From IMG/VR virus record IMGVR_UViG_3300023184_000209, positions 1 to 47,279 of that record: a stretch of DNA of 47,279 nt, one strand, 5' to 3'. A model generated the notes under the pieces. That model worked only from the letters and a program-made list of their open reading frames with translations. It had not been told where the DNA came from and did not search any database. Position 1 is the first letter of the stretch. Each line of letters opens with the position of its first letter. The translations under genes and the position numbers were made by a program. This DNA comes from a virus. Of the stretch, positions 2-44,308 are shown in pieces.

Positions 2-901
2 AATGGATTTGCACCTCGTTCAGCTACAACATCTGGCAATGGTGGGGTTGGCTTATTATTTTATGCATCAGGAAGAGGTATAGGAGATCCATCCTCTAAC
101 GAAAATATTCATTTGAATGAATTTAATGGGTTTACACAAACATATGTAAACCAACCTTCATTGTCGAGGCCATGGAATTGGATAAGCATGAGTAGCGGAA
201 CAAATTTATATTTTATATTAGGTGGAATCACAACGGCACAATTGCCAAATAACAGTTTAACCAATCAAAATAAAATTACTTATAATTTACAAAATCTTAG
301 TTCTTCAAATTCTACAATTGCAACATCAAATTATAAAAATGGAGCAGACGAATTACTTAAAAATGAAGTAACTTATGATATAAGCGGAAACTCCAATCAA
401 GGCAACATGAGCGTTTATAGATCATGTTGGAAAGATTCTGCTGGTTTCTTTATGAGAAATCAAGGTGTAGGAGATTTTTTCCGAATCAAAAGTTTTTATA
501 AGACAAGTGGCACAACAACTGATTACTTTGTTGATATTAGAAAGTTAAATGATATGTCTGGATCGACAAAAGTAGAAGGCCAGCTTGTTACTTTAAGTCA
601 AGGAGTTTATTTCTTCAACAATAGCGGTTCTATTTCTGCCTATAATCCAACATCTAATGTTTGGGAAACTGGCGGAACTGGAGTGAATTCATCTTCATTT
701 AGATTGTTGCAAGATAACACAGTTTCTGGTTATGATAACGCAACGCAAACTCTTGTTGCGACATCCGATAATGATAAAATTGCTTATTTAAGTTTTGATT
801 ATAGCAATAAAGCATATATAAAATTCAATGAAACAACACTTACATTTAGCAATGTTTCCAATAGGCCTAGTGGCAATCAATGGATTATGAGTATTTTCTA
901 G
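2..901 (+). CDS. Virion/tail structural protein, 5'-truncated
   Basis: The reading frame is open from base 2 to the TAG at 899-901, so the true start lies before the window. The visible 299 residues are rich in Ser, Asn, Thr and Gly with alternating hydrophobic residues, the look of a beta-rich phage fibre or baseplate protein, with no cysteine cluster or catalytic motif. It sits 22 bp before a very long fibre-like gene on the same strand, which supports a receptor-binding or tail-surface role. I do not recognise the family. The TTG at 113 is not a convincing start because the frame is uninterrupted before it. Confidence 0.6.
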   Translation, partial: NGFAPRSATTSGNGGVGLLFYASGRGIGDPSSNENIHLNEFNGFTQTYVNQPSLSRPWNWISMSSGTNLYFILGGITTAQLPNNSLTNQNKITYNLQNLSSSNSTIATSNYKNGADELLKNEVTYDISGNSNQGNMSVYRSCWKDSAGFFMRNQGVGDFFRIKSFYKTSGTTTDYFVDIRKLNDMSGSTKVEGQLVTLSQGVYFFNNSGSISAYNPTSNVWETGGTGVNSSSFRLLQDNTVSGYDNATQTLVATSDNDKIAYLSFDYSNKAYIKFNETTLTFSNVSNRPSGNQWIMSIF

Positions 902-923
902 AAACCAAACAATAAATAATATA

Positions 924-3900
924 ATGTCTAATTACTTTCCTCCCACACCTGTATACCCTAAAAACTACGACAACAATCGTACATTGTTTTTAGTTTATAA
1001 TACTTCCGAATCAATCACTACATCTGAAAACAATCCTTGGCAAGATTCAATTGAAATAAAACCAGTTGCAATAAACCAAAATGAAATATGGTCAGATAAT
1101 GGCTATGGCAATATAAATGGAGAGCTTTTCTATTACAACAATGTTGAAAAAAATGAAAATGGAAAAATATTCAAATTTACAAATTGCATAAGAAATATTG
1201 CTGGATCTAAAACAAAATTTAATCATGTTGGTGCTGAAGTTAGAGGATTTGTGATCGCAGAACATCACAATCAACTCGCTACAGCAATAATCAATATGGA
1301 AAATTTTATTGGTTATAATTTTACAGATGACAAAGCAAGTTTAGATTGGAGAATTAGAAATCTTGCGGAACTACCAATTATTCTCGATGACTTTACATGT
1401 CCTGATGTTACTTTCTTTTTTACTATTGCATCAGCTAATCCAACTACAGGAACAATAGCAAATTATAGCGTTGAAATTAATGGATCTTATCTAAACTTCA
1501 GAATAGATTTTGGCGATGGAACATTTACAACTACAAGTTTGGCTGGAACACATACATATTCGGCAAGTGGAAAAATAGATCCAGTCATTCAAGTTAATAC
1601 AAATAACTGCACTATAGTTCAAAGCCCTACACAAAGAGAAGTTGCAACGCAACCAAGTATCACAACTGTTAATCCTCCTTTAGAAATTATAATTCCAAAC
1701 ATACCAGATATTCCACAACTTATCATTCCGCAATTAAATTTACCAACAGTTAATGTTCAACCTCCACCTATTTTATTTCCATGTTTAGATATTGGACCTT
1801 TAGGACCAATTAATATTCCTTCTGTAATTATAATCGACCCACCAGTACCATCAATCATTACTTTCGGACCACTCGATATACCAAGTGTGATTTCGTTTGT
1901 ATCTCCAAATATTCCAACTGTAATTACATTTACACCACCTAGTTTCCCAACTGTAATTACATTTACACCACCTAGTTTCCCAACTGTAATTTCAATAACA
2001 GTGCCTAGTTTTCCAACTATAATTTCATTTACACCACCTAGTTTTCCAACTATAATTTCATTTACACCACCAAATATTCCAACTATAATTTCATTTACAC
2101 CACCTAGTTTCCCAACTATAATTTCATTTACACCACCTAGTTTCCCAACTGTAATTACATTTACACCACCTAGTTTCCCAACTGTAATTACATTTACACC
2201 ACCAAATATTCCAACTGAAATATTTGTTACTGGTTGTAGTATGCCGACTGAAATTTCAATAACAGTGCCTAGTTTCCCAACTGTAATTTCAATAACAGTG
2301 CCTAGTTTCCCAACTATAATTTCATTTACACCACCAAATATTCCAACTATAATTACATTTACGCCACCTACTTTCCCAACTATAATTTCATTTACACCAC
2401 CAAATATTCCAACTATAATTTCATTTACACCACCTGATATTCCAACTGTAATTTCATTTACACCACCTGATATTCCAACTGTAATTACATTTACACCACC
2501 TGATATTCCAACTGTAATTTCATTTACACCACCTGATATTCCAACTGTAATTACATTTACACCACCTGATATTCCAACTGTAATTACATTTACACCACCT
2601 GATATTCCAACTGTAATTACATTTACACCACCTGATATTCCAACTATAATTACAGTTACACCACCTAGTTTCCCAACTGTAATTACAGTTACACCGCCTA
2701 TCATTCCAACTGTAATTTCATTTACACCACCAAATATTCCATCAATTGTGAGTATTATAGGCTGCACTATTCCATCTGAAATAAATGTTATAAACTGTAG
2801 CATTCCAACAAACATTTCATTTACACCACCTGATATTCCAACTGTAATTTCATTTACACCACCTGATATTCCAACTGTAATTACATTTACACCACCTGAT
2901 ATTCCAACTGTAATTACATTTACACCACCTGATATTCCAACTGTAATTACATTTACACCACCTGATATTCCAACTGTAATTACATTTACACCACCTACTT
3001 TCCCAACTGTAATTACATTTACACCACCTGATATTCCAACTGTAATTACATTTACACCACCTGATATTCCAACTGTAATTTCATTTACACCACCTGATAT
3101 TCCAACTGAAATATTTGTAACTGGTTGTAGTATTCCGACTTTAATTTCGGTAACACCACCTAGTATGCCATCAAACATTACATTTACACCGCCTGATATG
3201 CCAAGTGTAATTACATTTACGCCACCAAGTATGCCAAGTGTAATTACATTTACGCCACCAAGTATGCCAAGTGTAATTACATTTATACCACCTAGTTTTC
3301 CAAGTGTAATTACATTTACGCCACCAAATATTCCATCAATTGTGAGTATTATCGGTTGTACTATTCCATCTGAAATAAATGTTATAAACTGTAGCATTCC
3401 ATCAAACATTACATTTACACCACCTGATATGCCAAGTGTAATTACATTTGTTCCACCTAATATGCCAAGTATAATTACATTTGGTATAGGACCAACTATA
3501 CCAAGTGTAATTACATTTGTTTCACCGCCAACTATAACAAGTGAAATTAAATTTATCTCACCACCAAGCATACCAAGTGAAATTAAATTTGGGCCAGCAC
3601 CAAGTTTAACAGTAGATTGGGGAACTCCACCAAGTTTAAACTGTACTGTTACAGTCGCTTGTCCGTCTAGTGGCCCTGCGTTTAATTACAGGTCAATGGA
3701 TGGAATAAATGATCTTGACGATCCCTCTTTGAGTGTCGAAATCAATGATATTGGAATTCCATCGATAATAAAAGTGATCGCCCCAGTAATACCAGATATA
3801 AAAATATTACATGACATTCCAGCCTTGATTAGAATAGAATCTTTTAAGATACCAGATAAAATAACACTTGTGTCTGATTTTGATATTCCGAAAGAAATTA

Positions 3901-4268
3901 AAATTACTTCTGATAATATTATTTCTGAAATAAAATTAGTAGCTGAAAATTTACCATCAACAATTAAATTAGAATCTGATTTGCCAAAATTTATAAGACT
4001 GGACATTCCAGAAGATTTCCCAAGGTCTATCAAAATTGATGCAAGTGGAATACCAGATAAAATTCAAGTTGTTGGAATTCCTCCTTCTATTGAGATTGTA
4101 GGAAATATACCTTCTGAAATTAAATTGGTAATGCCAGAAAAACCAGAAATAGAACTAGTTTATAAAGGTTCTCCAATTGATGTCAAAATACAATTAGACA
4201 TAAGTAAATTAAATGGAGAAAATAATAGTAAGCAGCAATGTGTAGCGATAGTTCCTTGCGGAGATTAA
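924..4268 (+). CDS. Giant repetitive fibre-like protein with 11-residue Pro repeats
   Basis: This 1114-aa protein has three parts. Residues 1-150 form a unique N-terminal region. Residues about 155-235 look like a PKD/Ig-type domain (IDFGDGT at 194-200 followed by HTY). The rest is a long repeat region. From about residue 331 the unit is 11 residues, consensus ITFTPPDIPTV, repeated nearly 50 times. From about residue 900 the Pro-Pro pairs disappear but an IP-x-x-I-K rhythm continues to the C-terminus. Cysteines at 438, 614, 625, 735, 812 and 823 are all separated by exact multiples of 11 residues. There is no signal peptide. Neighbouring glycosyltransferase-like genes and the upstream structural gene suggest a tail fibre or whisker, possibly glycosylated. 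The family is not recognised; the fibre role is inference. Confidence 0.6.
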   Translation: MSNYFPPTPVYPKNYDNNRTLFLVYNTSESITTSENNPWQDSIEIKPVAINQNEIWSDNGYGNINGELFYYNNVEKNENGKIFKFTNCIRNIAGSKTKFNHVGAEVRGFVIAEHHNQLATAIINMENFIGYNFTDDKASLDWRIRNLAELPIILDDFTCPDVTFFFTIASANPTTGTIANYSVEINGSYLNFRIDFGDGTFTTTSLAGTHTYSASGKIDPVIQVNTNNCTIVQSPTQREVATQPSITTVNPPLEIIIPNIPDIPQLIIPQLNLPTVNVQPPPILFPCLDIGPLGPINIPSVIIIDPPVPSIITFGPLDIPSVISFVSPNIPTVITFTPPSFPTVITFTPPSFPTVISITVPSFPTIISFTPPSFPTIISFTPPNIPTIISFTPPSFPTIISFTPPSFPTVITFTPPSFPTVITFTPPNIPTEIFVTGCSMPTEISITVPSFPTVISITVPSFPTIISFTPPNIPTIITFTPPTFPTIISFTPPNIPTIISFTPPDIPTVISFTPPDIPTVITFTPPDIPTVISFTPPDIPTVITFTPPDIPTVITFTPPDIPTVITFTPPDIPTIITVTPPSFPTVITVTPPIIPTVISFTPPNIPSIVSIIGCTIPSEINVINCSIPTNISFTPPDIPTVISFTPPDIPTVITFTPPDIPTVITFTPPDIPTVITFTPPDIPTVITFTPPTFPTVITFTPPDIPTVITFTPPDIPTVISFTPPDIPTEIFVTGCSIPTLISVTPPSMPSNITFTPPDMPSVITFTPPSMPSVITFTPPSMPSVITFIPPSFPSVITFTPPNIPSIVSIIGCTIPSEINVINCSIPSNITFTPPDMPSVITFVPPNMPSIITFGIGPTIPSVITFVSPPTITSEIKFISPPSIPSEIKFGPAPSLTVDWGTPPSLNCTVTVACPSSGPAFNYRSMDGINDLDDPSLSVEINDIGIPSIIKVIAPVIPDIKILHDIPALIRIESFKIPDKITLVSDFDIPKEIKITSDNIISEIKLVAENLPSTIKLESDLPKFIRLDIPEDFPRSIKIDASGIPDKIQVVGIPPSIEIVGNIPSEIKLVMPEKPEIELVYKGSPIDVKIQLDISKLNGENNSKQQCVAIVPCGD
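1914..3480 (+). repeat. 33-bp tandem repeat array inside fibre-like gene
   Basis: A 33-nt unit encoding 11 residues is repeated about 47 times in tandem. Many copies are nearly identical (for example those at 2430-2640 and 2830-3090), while others diverge at the D-I-P or S-F-P positions. The array stays in frame throughout. Because 33 is a multiple of three, the opposite strand is also stop-free for about 1.8 kb, which produces a spurious antisense open frame. Near-identity of central copies points to recent expansion or gene conversion, so copy number may vary between relatives. Confidence 0.9.
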
Positions 4269-4275
4269 TCTGATT

Positions 4276-5181
4276 TTGTTAGAAGAAATTGAAAAATTAT
4301 CTTACGAAATAGACAATTTTTTTGACAATAGTTGCAGTGCCTTTATGGTTGCTGGTGGAGTTGGCGATCTTCTATTATTGCTTGCAACCGCATATGACCA
4401 ACACGATCCAAGAATATTGTTTTTATCAAATGACGATAAAAATATATTTGCAAAATGTTTTTGTGATTTTTTTAATGTAAAATGTTTATTTCACAAAAAC
4501 ATCGTGTTTAGTGATGGCTATGATTTCATTTATAAAAAATTTACAAGTATGCCATGTTTTAAGCAATCTGCACATTTACCAGATAGAATTACACTTCCTT
4601 ATAAGGATTGGCATGATACTTCAAAATATATTCCAAGAATAAAAACCAAACCGAATTGGAACAAACTTATAGGAAGAAGCGATATAGTTCCATCAAAATA
4701 TATAATTCTTGCACCTTCTGGTGGTCTGAGAGATGTTTCAAAAAAGAAATTCCTAACTCAAGATGAGTATAATGCTTTAATAGAAAAGCTTCTTGAATTA
4801 AAATATTCTATTGTGACAACTGGAAGCTTAGACGATTATAATTACTATGAATTACATGAAAACAAAAATTGCCATTGGCTAACACACAATTGCTTATACA
4901 GTTTAAATGAAAAAAAAGAGATTAAATTTTTAGATTTTTTGCAGATAATTAATTCATCCAGTGATTGTATAAGTGTTGACACATATTTAAAAACATTAAT
5001 TTTACTTTTACAAAAAAAAGCCAAAGTAATTAGAACTACATTTGATGGTAAATATAAAGATTTTGGAATTGATGTTTCAGACCAAATATTTTTAAATAAA
5101 AGCATATGGGAAAAAATAAAGTGTTACACATTTGAAGAATTGATATTCGATCTAAATACTAAAAACAAACTACTCTTTTAA
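4276..5181 (+). CDS. GT9-like (GT-B fold) glycosyltransferase homologue
   Basis: A 301-aa protein beginning at TTG 4276, seven bases after the fibre gene stop, with CGGAG upstream. Near the N-terminus GGVGDLLLLL (about residues 27-36) resembles the Gly-rich loop of heptosyltransferase/GT9 proteins. A central APSGG segment precedes a Rossmann-like half, and SVDTYLKTL near residue 235 resembles the family's DTG/A-x-x-H region but lacks the histidine. It may therefore be divergent or inactive as a classical heptosyltransferase. It is followed after three bases by another sugar-related gene and lies next to the repetitive fibre, so fibre glycosylation or host-glycan modification is plausible. Confidence 0.45.
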   Translation: MLEEIEKLSYEIDNFFDNSCSAFMVAGGVGDLLLLLATAYDQHDPRILFLSNDDKNIFAKCFCDFFNVKCLFHKNIVFSDGYDFIYKKFTSMPCFKQSAHLPDRITLPYKDWHDTSKYIPRIKTKPNWNKLIGRSDIVPSKYIILAPSGGLRDVSKKKFLTQDEYNALIEKLLELKYSIVTTGSLDDYNYYELHENKNCHWLTHNCLYSLNEKKEIKFLDFLQIINSSSDCISVDTYLKTLILLLQKKAKVIRTTFDGKYKDFGIDVSDQIFLNKSIWEKIKCYTFEELIFDLNTKNKLLF

Positions 5182-5184
5182 AAC

Positions 5185-6042
5185 ATGAAAACATCAAAAA
5201 GAATTAAAATTTATCAAGATGGAAATGAATATATCAAAACCGATAGCAATATGTGGGTGCGTAACTTTACAAAAACAAACTGCCCACAAGTCGATTTAAA
5301 CAAAACATACAATCCAAGTGATTATTTTGTTTTTTTAAAAAATGAAATTCAAAATAGTATGCAAAAACATATGTGGGTTAATCATGAAAATTTAAATCAT
5401 GATAAGATTCTAATTATTAGTGATGGATTTAATTTTGAAAAAAAACAAAAAATTTTAGCATCTATTCCAAAAGACATAACAGTAATTGGAGTTTTGGGTT
5501 CTTTAGCAAAGTGGAATACAAACAATAGAAATATGGATTATTATGTTGTTAACAATCCTTATAAAGACTGTGTGAAATACTTTGGAAAAAGACACATCAG
5601 AAACTTTCCAAAATGTATAGCATCTTTAAAAACCAATTCTGATTTCGTAGCTAATTATAGAGGAAGAATGTTAAAATATCTTCCCGTTTACGAAGGTGGA
5701 TATACCTCTAAATATGCCAAGGAAACAGACACACAAATTGATGATTATAGAAATCCAATTTGTGCAGCCATTCAATTGGCATTTATGTTCAATGCATATA
5801 AAATATTTTTATATTGTTGCGATGACAGTTTTGAAGGCGAAAGACCAAGTGCAGAAAAATTAGAAAATGGATTGTATCAATATCCACAACAAAGAATAGC
5901 TCATGAAATCATTGATGCAAAATTGTTTTGGTTAAAGATGTTACCTTATCAGGAAATTAAAATATTTTATAACTCGAATGGTTTAAAGTTTGAAAACGCA
6001 ACATATATAGAAGAAGATGAAATACTTAATGTTATGAAGTGA
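5185..6042 (+). CDS. DUF115/MAF-like Rossmann protein (possible glycan enzyme)
   Basis: A 285-aa protein three bases after the previous gene. The middle has a Rossmann-like beta strand and loop (ILIISDGFNF near 70-80, then a VIGVLGSLAKW strand). The segment around 190-215 (ICAAIQLAFMFNAYKIFLYCCDD) resembles the A-x-Q-x-A-x-x-[FL]-G-x-x-x-I-x-L-x-G-x-D signature of DUF115/MAF proteins, which act in flagellin and surface glycosylation. The conserved glycine is an asparagine here. The next gene starts four bases after the stop. The assignment rests on motif resemblance only; it could be an unrelated Rossmann protein. Confidence 0.4.
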   Translation: MKTSKRIKIYQDGNEYIKTDSNMWVRNFTKTNCPQVDLNKTYNPSDYFVFLKNEIQNSMQKHMWVNHENLNHDKILIISDGFNFEKKQKILASIPKDITVIGVLGSLAKWNTNNRNMDYYVVNNPYKDCVKYFGKRHIRNFPKCIASLKTNSDFVANYRGRMLKYLPVYEGGYTSKYAKETDTQIDDYRNPICAAIQLAFMFNAYKIFLYCCDDSFEGERPSAEKLENGLYQYPQQRIAHEIIDAKLFWLKMLPYQEIKIFYNSNGLKFENATYIEEDEILNVMK

Positions 6043-8158: not shown

Positions 8159-8193
8159 AAAATACCACTATCTTAAAATAGTGGTATTTTTTT
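8159..8193 (+). terminator. Rho-independent terminator
   Basis: Perfect inverted repeat AAATACCACTAT / ATAGTGGTATTT around a six-base loop, followed by a T run into 8193. It closes the structural gene ending at 8123. The next gene begins immediately after, so that gene needs read-through or a promoter close by. Confidence 0.9.
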
Positions 8194-8203
8194 GAAGAGA
8201 AAA

Positions 8204-9169
8204 ATGGCTGAATTAAAAAAATCAGAATATATACAACCAACATTATCAATTAAAGATTTCTTTCAAAGAAGAAATCAAATTTTGTTACATCATGACAAAG
8301 GTGGCTTGGGTGATGTTCTTATGCATCGAATGTTATTGACAGATATGCATCATCATTTGCCAAATGCAGAATTTACAGTTGCTTGTCTACCCGAATATGC
8401 CGAAGCAACTACTGATCATCCTTATGTTAAAAATGTTGTTGATTCTAGAATTGTTAATCCAAATGATTACATTGTGTGTTTTAATACCTGTGTAAGTATA
8501 GCAGATAGATATGAAAATAGAAATGCTCCACATTACACTATTCATCGGAGTGATATTTGGGCAAAATATTGTGGACTTGAATTAACAAGTCATGATATGT
8601 GTTTTGTTATTGAAGAAGAAAGAAAAAATAGAATAAAAAAAGAATTAGAAAAATATAGAAAAAATAATGGGGCATTAATTGGATTTTGTCCTGTATCAAA
8701 AATGGCAAATAAAACACTATTGCCAAATCAAATAAAATGTATTGCCGATTATTGCAAAAACCACAATTTGATAGCACTCCATAAATCTCCCATATTAGAT
8801 TGTGAAAAATTACGATTGCCAACAATATGCCCTCAAAATTTAAAAGATTGGATTTGTTATATTAGTTGCATGGATTATATGATAACTGTTGACACCGCTG
8901 CTTTTCATGCTGCTGGAGGTTTAAAAAAACCATTGGTTGGTATTTTTACTTTTGCAAATGGTAAAACTTATGGTAAATATTATGACTTCATACTTGTTCA
9001 AAAGCATAGAGACAATGGAAATTGGGATTGTGGGCCATGTTTTGTATTTGGTAATTGCCACAAATCAAAAAAAGCAATTAAGCCATGTTTGTCAGAACTT
9101 ACTGAACTTGAAATTATAGAAGGAATTAAAAAGATGTTTGAAAAATGGCCTAAATGCACACTATATTAA
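8204..9169 (+). CDS. Glycosyltransferase family 9 (heptosyltransferase-like)
   Basis: A 321-aa protein. ATG 8204 is preferred over TTG 8192 because GAAGAGA precedes it and the TTG lies in the terminator. GGLGDVLMHRMLL (about residues 29-41) is the GT9 N-terminal Gly-rich loop. VDTAAFHAAGGLKKPLVGIF (about 225-245) is the classical D-T-x-x-x-H-x-A donor-site signature, and the C-terminal CGPCFVFGNCHKSK segment has three cysteines. GT9 enzymes transfer heptose or other sugars to lipopolysaccharide; here the acceptor could be host LPS or a virion protein. This is the better-preserved of two GT9-type genes in the window. Confidence 0.75.
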   Translation: MAELKKSEYIQPTLSIKDFFQRRNQILLHHDKGGLGDVLMHRMLLTDMHHHLPNAEFTVACLPEYAEATTDHPYVKNVVDSRIVNPNDYIVCFNTCVSIADRYENRNAPHYTIHRSDIWAKYCGLELTSHDMCFVIEEERKNRIKKELEKYRKNNGALIGFCPVSKMANKTLLPNQIKCIADYCKNHNLIALHKSPILDCEKLRLPTICPQNLKDWICYISCMDYMITVDTAAFHAAGGLKKPLVGIFTFANGKTYGKYYDFILVQKHRDNGNWDCGPCFVFGNCHKSKKAIKPCLSELTELEIIEGIKKMFEKWPKCTLY

Positions 9170-9184: not shown

Positions 9185-9403
9185 GTGGCACAACTTATAA
9201 AAGCTAGTGATATCAAGGTTATTACAAAAGATGGCGAATGTAAGCTGTCTATAAGTATAGATTTAAATATAAATTTAAACACTTCTGGCGTAACTGTTGG
9301 TGTTCAAAATGCAAAAGTTGAGCAAAAAAAAGAAGAAAGTGCAATGTGGGAAGTTCCAGATTTTGCACAGATGCCAAAATTAAATTTTGGAAAAAAAGCA
9401 TAG
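9185..9403 (+). CDS. Small protein upstream of actin-like gene, unknown
   Basis: A 72-aa protein from GTG 9185, with AAGAGG five bases upstream. The N-terminal two thirds alternate hydrophobic and polar residues (small beta domain), followed by a charged linker and a conserved-looking tail, WEVPDFAQMPKLNF. It ends 25 bases before the actin-like ATPase on the same strand. Its position suggests a partner of that ATPase, but this is only contextual. Confidence 0.5.
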   Translation: MAQLIKASDIKVITKDGECKLSISIDLNINLNTSGVTVGVQNAKVEQKKEESAMWEVPDFAQMPKLNFGKKA

Positions 9404-9428
9404 AAACACAAAAGGAAAGGCAAATAAA

Positions 9429-10436
9429 ATGGCAAGTTGTGGCTTTGATGTGGGTACTTATAATCTGGTTTCATGTAGAAGAGATGGAAACGGCAACTTT
9501 GTAAATAAAAGAGAAGTTAATGCATTTTTAGAATTACCATTAGAAAATAGGTTTGTTTTCGACATGATGAAACAAGCTGGTGTTCCTCTTATAGAAAGAG
9601 AAAATGTAGCATATGCTCTTGGTGAGGCTGCTGTAAATATGGCCTATACCATGAGCCAAATTGAGCTTAAAAGGCCTATGTCTGGTGGCTGTGTGAATCC
9701 AAAAGAAAGAGATGCTTTTCAAATTCTTTCTATCATGATTCATGGTCTTTTAGATGGAGTAAAACAGAATAATGAAACTGTATATTACTGTGTTCCAGCA
9801 AATGCCATTAATGAAGATACAGATGCCGATTATCACCAGAAGGTTTTAGAGGCAATATTCAAAGCATATAGATCCGAAGAAGGATATACAGTTAATGCAT
9901 ACCCAATTAACGAAGCTCTTGCTTTGGTCTATGCAGAATTAGGCAAAAAAGCTTATACTGGTATTGGAATTTCATTTGGAGCAGGGATGGTAAATCTATG
10001 CTACTCAATGTATGGCAATCCTATTTTCAAATTTGCAATTGTAAATAGTGGAGATTGGATTGATAAACAAGCAGCAAAAGCAACTGGCGAAAGTCCAACA
10101 TTCATCAATAAAGAAAAGACCAAAGTCGATCTGAGTGCGATTCCAACTAATTTAGTTGAAAGAGCAATTCAAACACAATATAGAATTATGATTGAGCATA
10201 CAATAAATGAAATTAAAAAAGGATTATCTACTGCTAATAAAGCTATTCACACTGATACGCCAGTTGATATTGTCATTGCTGGTGGAACTTCATCCCCACC
10301 TGGCTTTGATAAATTGTTCAGAGAAACCTTAATGCAAGCAAAACTTAACATTAAGATTGGCGAAGTCATTAGACCAGAAGATCCTTTATTTAGTGTTGCC
10401 AGAGGCTGTTTAATTGCTGCCGAAACCGCTAGGTAA
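9429..10436 (+). CDS. Actin-like ATPase (ParM/MreB superfamily)
   Basis: A 335-aa protein starting at ATG 9429, preceded by AAAGGAAAGG. Actin/Hsp70-fold motifs are visible in order: phosphate-1 GFDVGTYNL at 5-13, phosphate-2 GIGISFGAGMVNLCYS at 178-193, and an adenosine-type motif VIAGGTSSPPGF at 282-293. Length fits ParM/MreB-type filament proteins. Phage relatives form filaments used for plasmid-like partition or for positioning replicating DNA or virions in the cell. The small gene before it and the duplicated protein after it may be accessories. Filament formation is inferred from family. Confidence 0.75.
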   Translation: MASCGFDVGTYNLVSCRRDGNGNFVNKREVNAFLELPLENRFVFDMMKQAGVPLIERENVAYALGEAAVNMAYTMSQIELKRPMSGGCVNPKERDAFQILSIMIHGLLDGVKQNNETVYYCVPANAINEDTDADYHQKVLEAIFKAYRSEEGYTVNAYPINEALALVYAELGKKAYTGIGISFGAGMVNLCYSMYGNPIFKFAIVNSGDWIDKQAAKATGESPTFINKEKTKVDLSAIPTNLVERAIQTQYRIMIEHTINEIKKGLSTANKAIHTDTPVDIVIAGGTSSPPGFDKLFRETLMQAKLNIKIGEVIRPEDPLFSVARGCLIAAETAR

Positions 10437-23076: not shown

Positions 23077-23152
23077 TATTTTAAATGACTTTCTTTTTTT
23101 ATGAAACTACTTTAAAATATATAGGAAAATGAAATTTTATTTAGGAGATATC

Positions 23153-23638
23153 ATGGAAAATTTACAAGTTTTAACAAATGAGGTGAAAATGGCTACCAAA
23201 GAAGAACTCTATGCATTATTAGTAAGCGATCTTCGCAATGAACTAACTCATTTGCATTTTTATCTACAAAGTGCTGCTTTAGTTCAAGGATTACACTCAA
23301 AGGAATATAAAGAACATTTTTTAGAGGAATCAAGCAAAGAATTAAAGCATGTAAGTCAATTTAGTGATCTTCTAATTGGGCTTGGTCTTGAAATAACCAA
23401 TATGCCTTATTATGAAAAATTACCAAAATTGAATAATCCAGTAGATATCTTGAAACAAGCCTTGACACTTGAAGAGGAAGTAGTTTCTAATTATACAACA
23501 AGAATGCATCAAGCCGAAAGTTTGAAAACAGTTGATGGTGACTGGATTCATATATTTCTTGAAAAACAAATAGAAGAAAGCAGATTAGATGTTGACGAAT
23601 TAAAACAAATTATTCGTGGCATTAATTCTGGGTTTTAA
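23153..23638 (+). CDS. Ferritin-like / bacterioferritin-type protein
   Basis: A 161-aa four-helix protein from ATG 23153 with AGGAG upstream. Iron-site-like motifs fall in helix order: NELTHLHFYLQ, EESSKELKHVSQF (E-x-x-x-x-x-x-H pair), LTLEEEVVSNYTTR and FLEKQIEESRLDVDE. This is the ferritin-like superfamily pattern, though the last His of the classic site is not evident. Such proteins oxidise and store iron or protect DNA from peroxide. It is divergent from terminase, and the zinc-ribbon gene follows directly. Confidence 0.65.
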   Translation: MENLQVLTNEVKMATKEELYALLVSDLRNELTHLHFYLQSAALVQGLHSKEYKEHFLEESSKELKHVSQFSDLLIGLGLEITNMPYYEKLPKLNNPVDILKQALTLEEEVVSNYTTRMHQAESLKTVDGDWIHIFLEKQIEESRLDVDELKQIIRGINSGF

Positions 23639-29280: not shown

Positions 29281-29664
<384 letters not shown>

Positions 29665-31391: not shown

Positions 31392-33902
31392 ATGACAGTT
31401 TGGTCAGATTTTTTTAAATTGTTTACATACGCAACCGAAAAAGATCCTTTAAGCAAAATAAAGGATACTTCAAAATTTACGGGTGCAGGTATAGCACAAA
31501 CCGATGCACTTCAAACTGGCGGAGAGCTAGTAACAGGCCAAGGCCCAAGTAATTATGTAAATCTTCGTCAAACCTATGACATGATTGATACTACTACTCT
31601 TGGCAATAGGAGTATGAGGTACAAGGAATACGAAAGATTAAGAAATGTTCCAGAAATTGAAATGGCCATGACCGTATTTGCTGATGAAGCTTGTGTTTCT
31701 GGTGATACTAAAATTGCAACCCCATTCGGCTATCAAACAATTGAATGGCTAACAAACAACAAAGCAGATGAAAGATTTTTAGTATATTGTTATGATTTTG
31801 AAAAAAATGATTACAGTTTAGGATGGGCATTTGCTCCAAGAATTGTAAAAAAAGCAAAAACAATTGAAATACTTTTGGACAATGGAAAGTCAATTATCGC
31901 AACACCAGATCACAGAGTTCTTAAAAGGAATGGAGAATGGATAGCCTGTGGCGAATTAGAATTTGGCGATGAACTAATGCCATTTTATCGAACTCCAGCA
32001 AATCAAGATCTTACAAAAATCAAAACAAATCAATTCCCAAGAATCATGAGCTTTGAAAAAGGATGGGTACATGAAAGACAATTCATTGATGATTGGAGAT
32101 ATGGAAAAACAAATCCAGAATATGAAAAATTAAATAGAGCAACAAGATTGATTTGCGGAGATATTCCTGTTCGACAAATTGCCAAAATCATGAATTTAGA
32201 TTGGCACACAGTAGAAAATTGTATTCACAAAAATGGATTCTCACTTAAAGAATTAAAATATTTAAATAAAAGCAAAACTTGTCGCAAAGTAGTTGGAGTT
32301 ACAGAAGGAAAAGAAATTGATGTGTATGACATCTCTGTGGAAAAACACAAATGCTTTGCAACTGATTCTGTTATACTTCACAATTGCCAAAAAGATGATA
32401 CTGGTAATATTTTTAAAATTGATTGCAAAAATGATGATGTGAAAAAAGAACTTGAATTCTTATTGTTGCATAGAAAAATGCTAAATTTGAATCGTCATGG
32501 ATTTGCCTATTTCAAAGATTTAATTGTTCATGGTGATAAATTTTTTGAAATAGTTATAAATCCAGACAAGCCTTCTGATGGAATATATAAACTTACAACA
32601 CTACCACCAGAAACAATGTATAGGATTGAAACTATTAAAGGAAGATTAATAGAATTCCAACAATCCAAAGAAGGTCCAGATTATCAATCGTTAGGAAGAG
32701 GAGATATATCACAACTTAGTGATGCGGAACTCAATCAATCTACAGCAATTAGATTTAATCCATTACAAGTTTTACATATTAGAATAGGAGATGATAGAAG
32801 AAACTTCTATCCTTATGGACAGTCTCTTATTGAGCCAGCCAGAGGGCCAGCACATCAATTAAGACTCATGGAAGATGCAATGGTGGTGTATAGGTTGACT
32901 CGTGCGCCAGAGCGTAGAGTGTTCTATATTGATGTTGGTCAGCTTCCTCCATTTAAAGCAGAAGCATTTTTGGAAAGAATGAAAGATCAATTCAGAAAGA
33001 GAAAAATTGCTGGTAATCGTGGCAATAGCGGAGCCAATATGGTTGAAGAAAGATGGCAACCACCTGCACAAGATGAAGACTTTTGGATTCCAATTCGCCC
33101 TAATGCAAATACAAGAATTGAAACTTTGCCTGGTGCGCAAAATCTTGGAGAAGTAGATGATGCTTTGTACTTTAGAAATAAATTATTTGTATCTCTAAAC
33201 TTTCCCAAAAATTATTTCTCAAGTGAAGATGTAAATGCAACAAGAATTACATTGTCTGCACAAGATGTAAAATTTGCTCGCATGATCGAAAGATTACAAT
33301 CAAATTTTGAAGATGGAATTCTTGATCTTTGCGAAAGACATTTAGAGCTTCGTGGCTACCCAAGCGAAATGTATCAAGATCTTAAAATAAAAATGACATC
33401 ACCTTCTGATTGGCGTGAATTGTCAAGAAATGAAGTTAAGACTGCAAGATTTGGAAATGCTGCATCGCTTAAGGGAAGTTTGCTTATGTCAGATTTCGAC
33501 ATATTAACAAAAATACTTATGCATACCGAAGAAGATGCATCGATGATGTTGAGTCGTTTGAAATTACAAAAACTTGAAGATTTAAAAATTGCTATCATGG
33601 GGCAAAATCCACAATTGCTTGGAGTCGGTGTTCCAAGTGAAGAAAAAGCTGCTCCAGAAATTGGTGCTGAGGCTGGTGGACCTACTCCAGAATTGGGTGC
33701 AGAAGGAACTCCACCACCAGAAGGAACTCCACCACCAGAAGGAACTCCTCCAGAAGAAAGCGAATCAAAAGAAGAAACTGGTTCGTCTGCCTCTGAAATA
33801 CCAGAAGCAGATGAGGAAGATTTGAAGAAATATAACCTTGAAATCTATAGCTATGGAACAGAACAAGATTACGAAGATAAAGACACTAGTTATTTGAGTT
33901 AA
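31392..33902 (+). CDS. Portal protein (T4 gp20-like) containing an intein
   Basis: An 836-aa product from ATG 31392 with AGAGGA upstream. Residues 1-100 and 332-836 are the portal exteins (605 aa after splicing); features include ALHQLR-type helix (PAHQLRLMEDAMVVYRLTRA), the RRVFYIDVGQLP strand and NVDDALYFRNKLF region typical of gp20 portals. Residues 101-331 are an intein. The extein C-terminus has PEGTPP repeats and an acidic tail. The dodecamer sits at the head vertex where terminase docks. Next to core, protease and scaffold genes as in T4. Confidence 0.9.
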   Translation: MTVWSDFFKLFTYATEKDPLSKIKDTSKFTGAGIAQTDALQTGGELVTGQGPSNYVNLRQTYDMIDTTTLGNRSMRYKEYERLRNVPEIEMAMTVFADEACVSGDTKIATPFGYQTIEWLTNNKADERFLVYCYDFEKNDYSLGWAFAPRIVKKAKTIEILLDNGKSIIATPDHRVLKRNGEWIACGELEFGDELMPFYRTPANQDLTKIKTNQFPRIMSFEKGWVHERQFIDDWRYGKTNPEYEKLNRATRLICGDIPVRQIAKIMNLDWHTVENCIHKNGFSLKELKYLNKSKTCRKVVGVTEGKEIDVYDISVEKHKCFATDSVILHNCQKDDTGNIFKIDCKNDDVKKELEFLLLHRKMLNLNRHGFAYFKDLIVHGDKFFEIVINPDKPSDGIYKLTTLPPETMYRIETIKGRLIEFQQSKEGPDYQSLGRGDISQLSDAELNQSTAIRFNPLQVLHIRIGDDRRNFYPYGQSLIEPARGPAHQLRLMEDAMVVYRLTRAPERRVFYIDVGQLPPFKAEAFLERMKDQFRKRKIAGNRGNSGANMVEERWQPPAQDEDFWIPIRPNANTRIETLPGAQNLGEVDDALYFRNKLFVSLNFPKNYFSSEDVNATRITLSAQDVKFARMIERLQSNFEDGILDLCERHLELRGYPSEMYQDLKIKMTSPSDWRELSRNEVKTARFGNAASLKGSLLMSDFDILTKILMHTEEDASMMLSRLKLQKLEDLKIAIMGQNPQLLGVGVPSEEKAAPEIGAEAGGPTPELGAEGTPPPEGTPPPEGTPPEESESKEETGSSASEIPEADEEDLKKYNLEIYSYGTEQDYEDKDTSYLS
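31692..32384 (+). mobile_element. Mini-intein in portal protein (231 aa)
   Basis: The insert starts with Cys (CVSGDTKI, residue 101), has block B-like GKSIIATPDHRVL, block F VYDISVEKHKCF, and ends VILHN directly before Cys332. So all splice residues (Cys1, penultimate His, final Asn, Cys+1) are present and it should splice. Splicing restores TVFADEA-CQKDD. No LAGLIDADG or HNH motif is seen. The central 190-280 region contains a helix-turn-helix-like segment (PVRQIAKIMNLDWHTVENC), perhaps a remnant or DNA-binding part of a homing endonuclease. Confidence 0.9.
33702..33755 (+). repeat. 18-bp tandem repeat (x3) in portal C-terminus
   Basis: GAAGGAACTCCACCACCA occurs twice perfectly and a third time with changes, encoding PPEGTPPPEGTP, a flexible linker before the acidic portal tail. 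Confidence 0.85.
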
Positions 33903-39840: not shown

Positions 39841-41370
39841 GTGAACATCGAAGAATTTAAAACTAAGTATGCCGCCTTCAAAGATACCGACAAGATTCAA
39901 ATCCAATGTGATCATCATAATCACATTCCTTTTGGAGAAATAATTACAATAGGCAAACAACCAGCAAAGAGAAACATCTTGAAAAGCGGAGGCAAGGAAT
40001 TCATTTGTCGCCAATGCTTTATGAAATACAATAACCCTGTAAACAAGATCGGAGAAAAAAGACAAGATGATTCCATCATTGAAGTATTTTGTCCTTGCCA
40101 AGAGCATAATGGCGAACCATCACGCCAAATGAAAAAAAGTTGCTACTACGGATCAATGGAAACGCCTTATCTGCAAATTTGTGGAAGCTGTGTGCAAAAA
40201 GGCAGAGAAATAAGCGATGAACAAAAAGAAAGAATTCGACTTTCTCTTACTGGTATTAAGCGTAGTGATGAGTTTAAAGAAAAACTTAGCGTTTATATGA
40301 AAAACAATCCAGAAGGAATCGCAAGAGCAAAGTCTAATTTAATTCCAGGTTCTGGTGGGGGCTGGAACGAAGGTTTAAATTTATCAGAAGAAACAAAACA
40401 AAAAATGTCTGAATCTCATATGGGCAAGAAATTTTCCGAAGAACATTGTCAAAAAATTTCTGAAGGGAGAAAAAAAATGTTAGAAGAAACCGGAGGCTTC
40501 ACTCCAGAACACCGAATGAAGCTATCACGGGCAACGATCAGACAGTATCAGAATGGTTTTGACCCCAAGACCCACCATATTAGGGGAGTACACCATTCAA
40601 CCAAGATACCATCGGGGCAAGGGGTATTTAGGTCGTCATACGAGAAGAAAGCCTTCATGATACTGGATAATGACGAATCCGTTGTGTCTTACGAGATCGA
40701 AAAAATAACGATTAAGTACTTCAATCCAATCAAGAAGATCGATTCATTATATGTGATAGACATTTTAGTGAAACACAAAGACGGAACATCGAAATTGATT
40801 GAAGTAAAACCTCAATCTTGGCTTCTCGACCCAGTTATACAAGCAAAGATCGAAGCTGGAAAAATAAAGGCAGCAGAAATCGGCTTGCCATTTGAAGTTT
40901 GGACAGAAATGAATCTTTTTGGTCATGTGTATAACAAAAAAAATATGAAATTGTTCATGGATAAAATATTAAGTGAAGTCGATAAAAACAGAAGGATCAA
41001 GATATCGTCCGAGAAATCAAAAAGATATTACCACACCCATATTGCCAACGACAAAATTACCTTATTTTGCTCCTTCTGCAACGAGGAACATACTCCGCTA
41101 AGACTTACGCACGATAAGAATATAGCCAGAAATGGTCGCTACATATGTGAGCGTGAGGGAGGTCATATAGCGGGAAGTAGACCGAAGCCACATTTGCAAA
41201 AAAACAATCCTCATGTAGCTGACGGAAAGAAAGAATGCGTTAACTGTTTACAAATATTGGAATTTAAACTTTTCTCGCCCGACAATACGAAAAGAGATGG
41301 TCTTTGCGGAAGGTGCAAGGAATGCAGATCTAAAAAAGCAAAAGAAAAATACAATAAAAAAACTAAATAA
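39841..41370 (+). CDS. NUMOD3 + PD-(D/E)XK homing-type endonuclease
   Basis: A 509-aa protein from GTG 39841 after AAGGAGAAAAATC. In order: an N-terminal His/Cys-rich region (CDHHNH, CRQC, CPCQEH, CGSC); three NUMOD3-like modules around 130-230 (SDEQKERIRLSLTG, SEETKQKMSESHMG, TPEHRMKLS); a TnsA/PD-(D/E)XK nuclease around 260-360 with RSSYEKKAF, YVIDILVKHKDG and LIEVKPQSW as the E, D and E-x-K motifs; and a C-terminal Cys-rich region (CNEEH, CVNC, CGRCKECR). It is a free-standing mobile gene inserted downstream of the capsid gene. Confidence 0.7.
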   Translation: MNIEEFKTKYAAFKDTDKIQIQCDHHNHIPFGEIITIGKQPAKRNILKSGGKEFICRQCFMKYNNPVNKIGEKRQDDSIIEVFCPCQEHNGEPSRQMKKSCYYGSMETPYLQICGSCVQKGREISDEQKERIRLSLTGIKRSDEFKEKLSVYMKNNPEGIARAKSNLIPGSGGGWNEGLNLSEETKQKMSESHMGKKFSEEHCQKISEGRKKMLEETGGFTPEHRMKLSRATIRQYQNGFDPKTHHIRGVHHSTKIPSGQGVFRSSYEKKAFMILDNDESVVSYEIEKITIKYFNPIKKIDSLYVIDILVKHKDGTSKLIEVKPQSWLLDPVIQAKIEAGKIKAAEIGLPFEVWTEMNLFGHVYNKKNMKLFMDKILSEVDKNRRIKISSEKSKRYYHTHIANDKITLFCSFCNEEHTPLRLTHDKNIARNGRYICEREGGHIAGSRPKPHLQKNNPHVADGKKECVNCLQILEFKLFSPDNTKRDGLCGRCKECRSKKAKEKYNKKTK

Positions 41371-43291: not shown

Positions 43292-44308
43292 TCACTTTAT
43301 AGAATTACATCTTACAAAAGTGGTGCATTTGCTTAAATCTTTCAATTGATTAGCTCCAACATAAGCACATGCAGATCTTAGTCCGCCAAGAATTTGATTT
43401 ACTACAGTTTCGGCACTACCTTTATAACCAACAAATTTAACTTCGCCTTCTGAAGCCCTATAATCCTTCATTCCGCCACAATATTTGTTATTTGCCTCTT
43501 CACTAGACATTCCATAAAACTTCAAATATTTTGTATCATCTTCAAATATCCATTCTCCCTCACATTCATCTGTACCAGCAAACATTCCTCCAAGCATTAC
43601 AAAGTCTGATCCTGCTCCGAAAGCTTTTGCTACATCGCCAGATTCTTTGCATCCACCATCTGAACATATAAGTCCATTTAATCCATGTGCTGCTTCTGCA
43701 CATTCGATTACGGCACTAAGTTGAGGATATCCTACTCCTGTAACCATACGAGTTTTACATACGCTACCACCGCCTATTCCGACCTTTATACAATCTGCTG
43801 CACCTGATAATAAAAGTTCTTGAACCATTTCTGGGGTACATACATTTCCAGCCATAATAAATGAATCTGGGAATATAGATCTAATTTCTTTAACTTTGTT
43901 TTGAAAGTGTTCTGTATAGCCATTAGCGACATCAATGGAGATGTTTATTTTGCGATTTGTAGATTTCATTTCTTTCAGTTTGATAAAATCGTCATCGGTA
44001 ATTCCAGTTGTGTAAAATGCGAATTCTGAGTATTCATTAGAATCAAAGAATTTTTGTAGTATGGGCAATTCATAGAATTTATGAAGACAAGTAAAAATGT
44101 TTAATTTGCCTAATGATTCTGCCATTTTCAAAGTTCCAACAGTATCCATGTTGGCAACAATGATTGGCACTCCTTTTATTATTGAATTGCTATTTAGTCC
44201 TTTAAAGCTTCTTGATAGGACTACATCTTTTCTACTGGCTGTTTTAGATCGTTTTGGTTTTATAAGAACATCATTAAATCCAAGTTTTATTTCATTGATA
44301 ATTTGCAT
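43292..44308 (-). CDS. guaC: GMP reductase
   Basis: A 338-aa IMPDH/GMP reductase family TIM barrel. The catalytic loop GIGGGSVCKTRMVTGVGYPQ (Cys184) and DGGCKESGDVAKAFGAGSDFVMLGG phosphate-binding region are clear. No CBS domain insert, and the length matches E. coli GuaC (347), so GMP reductase rather than IMP dehydrogenase. It converts GMP to IMP with NADPH, feeding adenine nucleotides, which would suit an AT-rich phage. AAGG precedes the start, overlapping the stop of the microprotein upstream. Confidence 0.8.
   Translation of the reverse strand: MQIINEIKLGFNDVLIKPKRSKTASRKDVVLSRSFKGLNSNSIIKGVPIIVANMDTVGTLKMAESLGKLNIFTCLHKFYELPILQKFFDSNEYSEFAFYTTGITDDDFIKLKEMKSTNRKINISIDVANGYTEHFQNKVKEIRSIFPDSFIMAGNVCTPEMVQELLLSGAADCIKVGIGGGSVCKTRMVTGVGYPQLSAVIECAEAAHGLNGLICSDGGCKESGDVAKAFGAGSDFVMLGGMFAGTDECEGEWIFEDDTKYLKFYGMSSEEANNKYCGGMKDYRASEGEVKFVGYKGSAETVVNQILGGLRSACAYVGANQLKDLSKCTTFVRCNSIK

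Follow-up and report, generated by a model that had tools for sequence, protein, structure and literature searches.

The gene at positions 924..4268 (+) of the viral DNA analysed here raises the question of what kind of structure is encoded by a long array of 11-residue repeats in which successive cysteines are spaced by exact multiples of 11. The window, meaning the whole 47,279-nucleotide stretch (positions 1 to 47,279 of IMG/VR record IMGVR_UViG_3300023184_000209), is a 47-kb viral record that encodes an intein-bearing T4-type portal, a large terminase, a prohead protease and a major head protein, and the gene belongs to an uncultured lineage of T4-like jumbo myophages. An initial sequence-only reading proposed a rigid fibre of constant 11-residue period, punctuated by cysteines acting perhaps as cross-links or metal sites. 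The analysis described below upholds a fibre-like protein with a beta-type repeat and finds the rigid, cysteine-punctuated 11-residue rod to be too specific an idea.

The open reading frame spans 1114 residues, and all of the following features lie on its plus strand. The N-terminal domain (residues 1-160; 924..1403), which is common to two upstream genes, is probably a baseplate-anchoring module. It is followed by a predicted PKD-like beta-sandwich (residues 161-233; 1404..1622) that scored 19.3 bits, under the cutoff, against Pfam PF18911. AlphaFold2 modelled this region with a pLDDT of 73-88, and comparison by VIA with the PrtV PKD1 domain (4l9d_B) gave a Z of 8.8 and an rmsd of 2.2 over 71 residues; it is this structure comparison, not the sub-threshold Pfam score, that supports the predicted PKD fold. 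A Pro-rich transition of irregular spacing with a conserved PPIxFPC motif (residues 240-316; 1641..1871) leads into the array (residues 317-844; 1872..3455), after which the register loosens, at residues ~850-890, within a tapering stretch of 12-residue units (residues 845-897; 3456..3614). The remainder (residues 898-1114; 3615..4265) is a conserved C-terminal domain with the landmarks xWGTPPxLxCxVTVxCP, degenerate IPxxI strands that continue the repeat to residue ~1070, VMPEKPEIEMVYKGAPIDVK... and CVAIVPC. The protein has no family in PHROGs and matches no known fibre family in sequence, and PDB sequence searches with profiles of the array and of the C-terminal domain returned nothing at E values up to 1. 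A 604-residue antisense frame (1757..3571, -) overlies the array, where the 33-bp repeat is free of stops; it is probably no gene and a by-product of the repeat, and the orthologous locus L025 retains only a 138-residue antisense stretch.

Within the array the register is strict. As initially noted, the 11-residue unit holds for about 520 residues, in 48 consecutive units of 33 bp without any indel. Self-identity at lag 11 was 0.735, compared to a maximum of 0.203 among 2000 shuffles, and TRF reported a period of 33 with 43.3 copies at 1908-3335. The unit consensus is P-[DSN]-[IFM]-P-[TS]-x-I-[TS]-F-T-P, with proline at position 4 in all 48 units and isoleucine at position 7 in 46. Calling the repeats exact is correct for the register and incorrect for the letters, since the 48 units comprise 28 different 11-mers. 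The six in-array cysteines do share a single phase modulo 11 and one repeat position, unit position 1, with GC or NC standing in for the usual PP, and the described alternation of single and double Cys units along the rod is also seen: single FVTGCS units carry Cys438 (2235..2237) and Cys735 (3126..3128), while double units carry Cys614 and Cys625 (2763..2798) and Cys812 and Cys823 (3357..3392). However, the double block at residues 603-635 recurs at 801-833 with 5 of 99 bases differing, and block 427-459 is related to block 724-756 (23 of 99 bases differing). Because these blocks are copies, the six cysteines do not represent six independent placements.

A search with the full protein recovered 21 loci in viral contigs and the 595-kb phage record LR756511 (LR756511.1, locus L023), and a search with a C-terminal profile recovered 54 viral loci plus a contig assigned to a Neisseriaceae MAG, with no annotated phage isolate among the relatives found. 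The MAG contig (L076, RXKI01000042.1; 77 kb) carries the fibre gene together with the same downstream genes and is therefore probably phage DNA. The C-terminal domain is common to more than 50 relatives, and the N-terminal domain is also present in those that are complete at the 5' end. Identity to the window in the C-terminal domain is 44-59% in most orthologues and 35% in LR756511; over the first 300 residues, identity among orthologues is 39-58%, most lying at 45-58% and LR756511 lower. All orthologues having both ends combine conserved ends with a variable middle.

How the middle varies is evident from the sister phage L002, in which the N-terminal 300 residues are 96% identical to the window and the corresponding DNA is 95.7% identical. 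At this divergence about 23% of orthologous 33-bp units would be expected to be identical (0.957 to the power 33), whereas none of the 48 window units is identical to any L002 unit; the L002 contig ends after its first 28 array units, which limits the comparison without explaining the pattern. The nearest unit differs from a window unit by a mean of 1.46 mismatches within the window array versus 4.85 in L002. This far closer likeness of units to their own array-mates indicates concerted evolution; the arrays are thus being rewritten through duplication and loss more quickly than their flanks diverge. One GC-containing Cys unit is common to both phages, being the 11th of the window array and the 20th of the L002 array, so the distance of a cysteine along the rod is not conserved. 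In-frame tandem duplication of 33-bp units, or of blocks of them, accounts for both the exact register and the cysteine spacings in multiples of 11. The proposal that the spacing is a design is not supported, given the displaced shared unit and a range among relatives from no array cysteine to 92.

The same turnover is apparent across the family. Array length ranges from 95 to about 1,160 residues; these unit counts come from metagenome assemblies and are uncertain, since many relatives' contigs stop inside the array and the longest exact repeat within the window array is 158 bp. Reliable counts are favoured by the agreement of L026-L028, three assemblies that match at 99.8% or more across 854 residues, and by that of L041, L043 and L044 across their shared parts, although the agreeing assemblies may be reassemblies of related samples. 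The dominant unit has 10, 11 or 12 residues, as in DDLPDNIPFI (10), PVTVPTEIKIT (11), PPSFPCISFCK (11, L066) and FGPAPTIPTTIN (12). The strand core is likewise spaced mostly by 10, 11 or 12 residues, with 11 and 12 mixed within L025, L026, L029 and L068. Mapped on a C-terminal-domain tree, unit length switches between 10, 11 and 12 residues at least seven times, which is a parsimony minimum on one tree and not an event count because some deep branches are unresolved and L023 has a long branch. Loss of the 11-residue register in close relatives had been named as grounds for giving up the regular rod, and this partly holds: L002, the closest relative, still has 11-residue units, but L029 and L030, within the window's own supported clade, use 12. 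Other relatives have 10- or 12-residue units, several arrays mix 11 and 12, and the 11-residue spacing is therefore no structural constant. What does stay constant across arrays is a P-x-x-I-x-F strand core in most units, followed by a loop rich in Pro, Gly or Asp. The most cysteine-rich case seen is L066 (3546-8681), a 1711-residue orthologue whose PPSFPCISFCK units bring 92 array cysteines.

AlphaFold2 returned a mean pLDDT of 46.7 for the full-length monomer; for a fragment of 14 units aligned in register the value was 58.7, and strands formed only in the last six units of that fragment. Both runs predicted, at low confidence, one strand of 4-5 residues per 11-residue unit. Because both runs were of monomers, the low score fits an oligomeric fibre or disorder alike. 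Foldseek comparison of the full-length model with viral structures gave TM-scores of about 0.3 or below, which were treated as meaningless outside the PKD domain, and a Foldseek search of the PDB with the array model found nothing; VIA returned one weak row for the array model, a capsid spike (9ny6_C, Z 3.4). A leucine-rich repeat of the 22-residue FNIP/IP22 type was rejected, as self-identity in the window protein at lag 22 (0.58) does not exceed that at lag 11 (0.65) and alignment with CroV588 gave an rmsd of 23.8.

The gene neighbourhood bears on the location of the product. In the 323-kb relative G004, the orthologue is preceded by genes for a tape measure, gp25 (PF04965), a baseplate wedge subunit and a P2-I-like tail protein. 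Residues 10-220 match the two genes directly upstream with E values of 1e-10 to 1e-14 (paralogous matches in relatives' contigs), and both of these fibre-like genes have PKD domains above the cutoff in L025. In the window, the C-terminal part of the preceding fibre-like gene is present at 2..901 (+) and is 99% identical to L002 3714-5978, where it encodes 754 residues; the listed frame 113-901 is not the whole gene, as the frame is open from base 2 and the gene is cut by the contig end. The position of the gene after baseplate-wedge genes, together with a PKD-bearing N-terminus that two upstream genes also have, makes it likely that the product is a baseplate-anchored fibre. Downstream, a 301-residue gene (4276-5181, +) directly after the fibre is without a match in the compared relatives' neighbourhoods and is taken to be an insertion particular to this phage or its near group. 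The next conserved gene (5185..6042, +) has a weak, below-cutoff MptE-like match (Pfam E 0.026) and is 45-61% identical in the relatives listed. A conserved block, whose gene order is kept in the relatives examined, includes a glycosyltransferase family 9 gene (8192..9169, +; PF01075, 25.2 bits, cutoff 22). O-glycosylation of the array by this neighbour was considered and set aside, since Ser/Thr content of the array varies from 11 to 36% across relatives while the neighbour stays.

Several other genes of the window were recorded. An actin-like protein (9387-10433, +) gives a full-model match to Pfam Volactin (239.6 bits, E 8e-71), copies 69-84% identical follow the fibre block in many relatives, and no solved relative was found by sequence; this phage-encoded actin of the Volactin family seems to merit its own study. 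A ferritin-like protein is encoded at 23129-23638 (+), and a 127-residue protein at 29281-29664 (+) is nearly all Asp/Glu in its C-terminal two thirds (GAT repeat; TRF, 39.5 copies of 6 bp). The T4-like portal gene (31392-33899, +) is split by an intein whose N- and C-terminal splicing regions score above the cutoff; the gene at 39841-41367 (+) mixes a head-closure match with TnsA-like, NUMOD3 and endonuclease VII matches and possibly carries an inserted endonuclease or intein. An IMP dehydrogenase/GMP reductase domain protein lies at 43292-44308 (-).

We consider it probable that the product is a fibre anchored at the baseplate of a T4-like jumbo myophage, and that between its conserved ends runs a beta-repeat shaft that evolves by gain and loss of units. 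The N-terminal module with its PKD-like domain would attach the fibre to the baseplate region, and we infer that the conserved C-terminal domain may register and cap the chains, or join or bind a conserved partner. The shaft between the two ends would consist of repeats, each with one short beta-strand (PxxIxF) and a Pro/Gly-rich loop, most likely wound with other copies of the chain into a homo-oligomeric beta-fibre. As 30-, 33- or 36-bp units are duplicated in frame or lost, this shaft would grow, shrink and be homogenised, changing in length and surface chemistry while both ends stay. Cys units would be passengers or local stabilisers, kept in phase by whole-unit copying. A bolder proposal, possible yet doubtful in our estimation, is that the shaft represents an oligomeric beta-fibre fold not described before, in which each unit supplies one short strand and units of 10, 11 and 12 residues are tolerated even side by side. 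Its length would be evolvable, and in some lineages a ladder of cysteines, with two in each unit and as many as 92 in a chain, would cross-link it.

Other explanations of the array start from the same data. It could only hold two folded ends apart, as a flexible Pro-rich tether in an extended or disordered state, in which case the strand pattern would be a weak propensity; the proline content of 24%, the low pLDDT of both AlphaFold2 runs and the tolerance of unit lengths of 10-12 and widely different chemistries would all suit it. Yet the P-x-x-I-x-F core is retained in arrays that are otherwise almost wholly changed, a tether would not be expected to show the hydrophobic alternation of I7 and F9, and both runs predicted regular strands, so that we regard a tether as distinctly unlikely. 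Those regular strands, with tight Pro/Gly turns and strictly repeating hydrophobic strand positions, could also belong to a single-chain beta-solenoid with several units per turn. This we hold to be the most improbable account of the array, because neither lag 22 nor lag 33 outperforms lag 11 in the window, unit lengths of 10, 11 and 12 residues are mixed in arrays, and the AlphaFold2 monomers were of low confidence even though monomer runs can find single-chain solenoids.

Two further explanations concern the role of the array and that of its cysteines. If the array were a variable host-contact surface, with unit turnover selected for diversity of receptors or decoys and not for length, its position as the most divergent part of the protein between conserved ends, and the total change of unit identity between lineages with flanks near 95%, would follow. 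We nevertheless find this unlikely: units are nearly identical within an array, as duplication without diversification predicts, neutral concerted evolution accounts for the pattern, and no carbohydrate-binding family was matched. The idea that Cys units are regularly spaced by design, as cross-links or metal sites, gains from the common phase of all array cysteines in the window, from the CISFC motif with two cysteines per unit in L066 and LR756511, and from the GC unit kept in L002. It is, however, quite improbable in light of the differing spacing of that unit from the N-terminus (unit 11 versus unit 20), the origin of the copies by block duplication, and the lack of any array cysteine in the 10-residue arrays of L036, L037, L038 and L021.

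The preferred reading, a fibre with fixed ends and a shaft of changing units, has broader implications. If fixed ends tolerate replacement of the rod by units that differ in length and chemistry, the fold must rest on a minimal strand-loop code and not on an exact period, and such a code may help in building protein rods to a desired length. With dozens of related genomes to compare, the family also documents naturally how tandem repeats turn over in phage structural genes, and its cysteine-rich variants pose the question of what role dozens of cysteines play in one phage structural protein.

The repeat can be set beside those of known fibres. In the triple beta-spiral of adenovirus and reovirus shafts, a strand-and-turn repeat of 15 residues has Pro or Gly in the turn. 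The array resembles it in strand and turn, but, as the sequence-only reading had pointed out, differs in length, with a period of 11 in the window and 10-12 in the family. The triple-stranded beta-helix of T4 gp5 is likewise a phage rod of regular short repeats, whose length can be altered through added repeats, but it is built on the octapeptide VxGxxxxx (PMC4576200), whereas the window unit is PxxPTxIxFxP (11 residues) and that of the family PxxIxF (10-12). In the delta beta-bracelet of Orsay virus, a pentameric nematode-virus fibre, each repeat supplies one strand of ~5 residues and a short loop (PMC7565637). This pattern fits the one predicted here and offers an architectural precedent, not a relative: the bracelet repeat has 8 residues, (L/V)x2Vx4V, compared to 10-12 in the window family, and no sequence relation between bracelet and window array was found. 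By the figures in PMC7565637, a shaft of 528 residues would measure about 250 A as a triple beta-helix, 470 A as a beta-spiral and 990 A if bracelet-like. Our searches of the open-access literature found no account of a comparable repeat fibre in jumbo phages; accession LR756511 was absent from the papers searched, and a text search of a paper on aquatic jumbo phages (PMC12619734) turned up no link. The LR756511.1 protein itself has the same N-terminal domain, C-terminal domain and 11-residue array, and differs in its unit, PPSFDCISFC(Q/H), which has two cysteines. A likeness is also seen to T4-like baseplate-anchored fibres of the gp12 or gp34-37 type, which similarly adjoin baseplate-wedge genes (gp25, gp6-like), share an N-terminal module with neighbouring fibre-like genes and have a long repetitive middle. 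Whereas phage fibres usually have variable receptor-binding tips, the C-terminus here is as conserved as the N-terminus, which speaks against the fibre reading, and the rod of 10-12-residue units, homogenised in each lineage, likewise sets this family apart from its T4-like counterparts.
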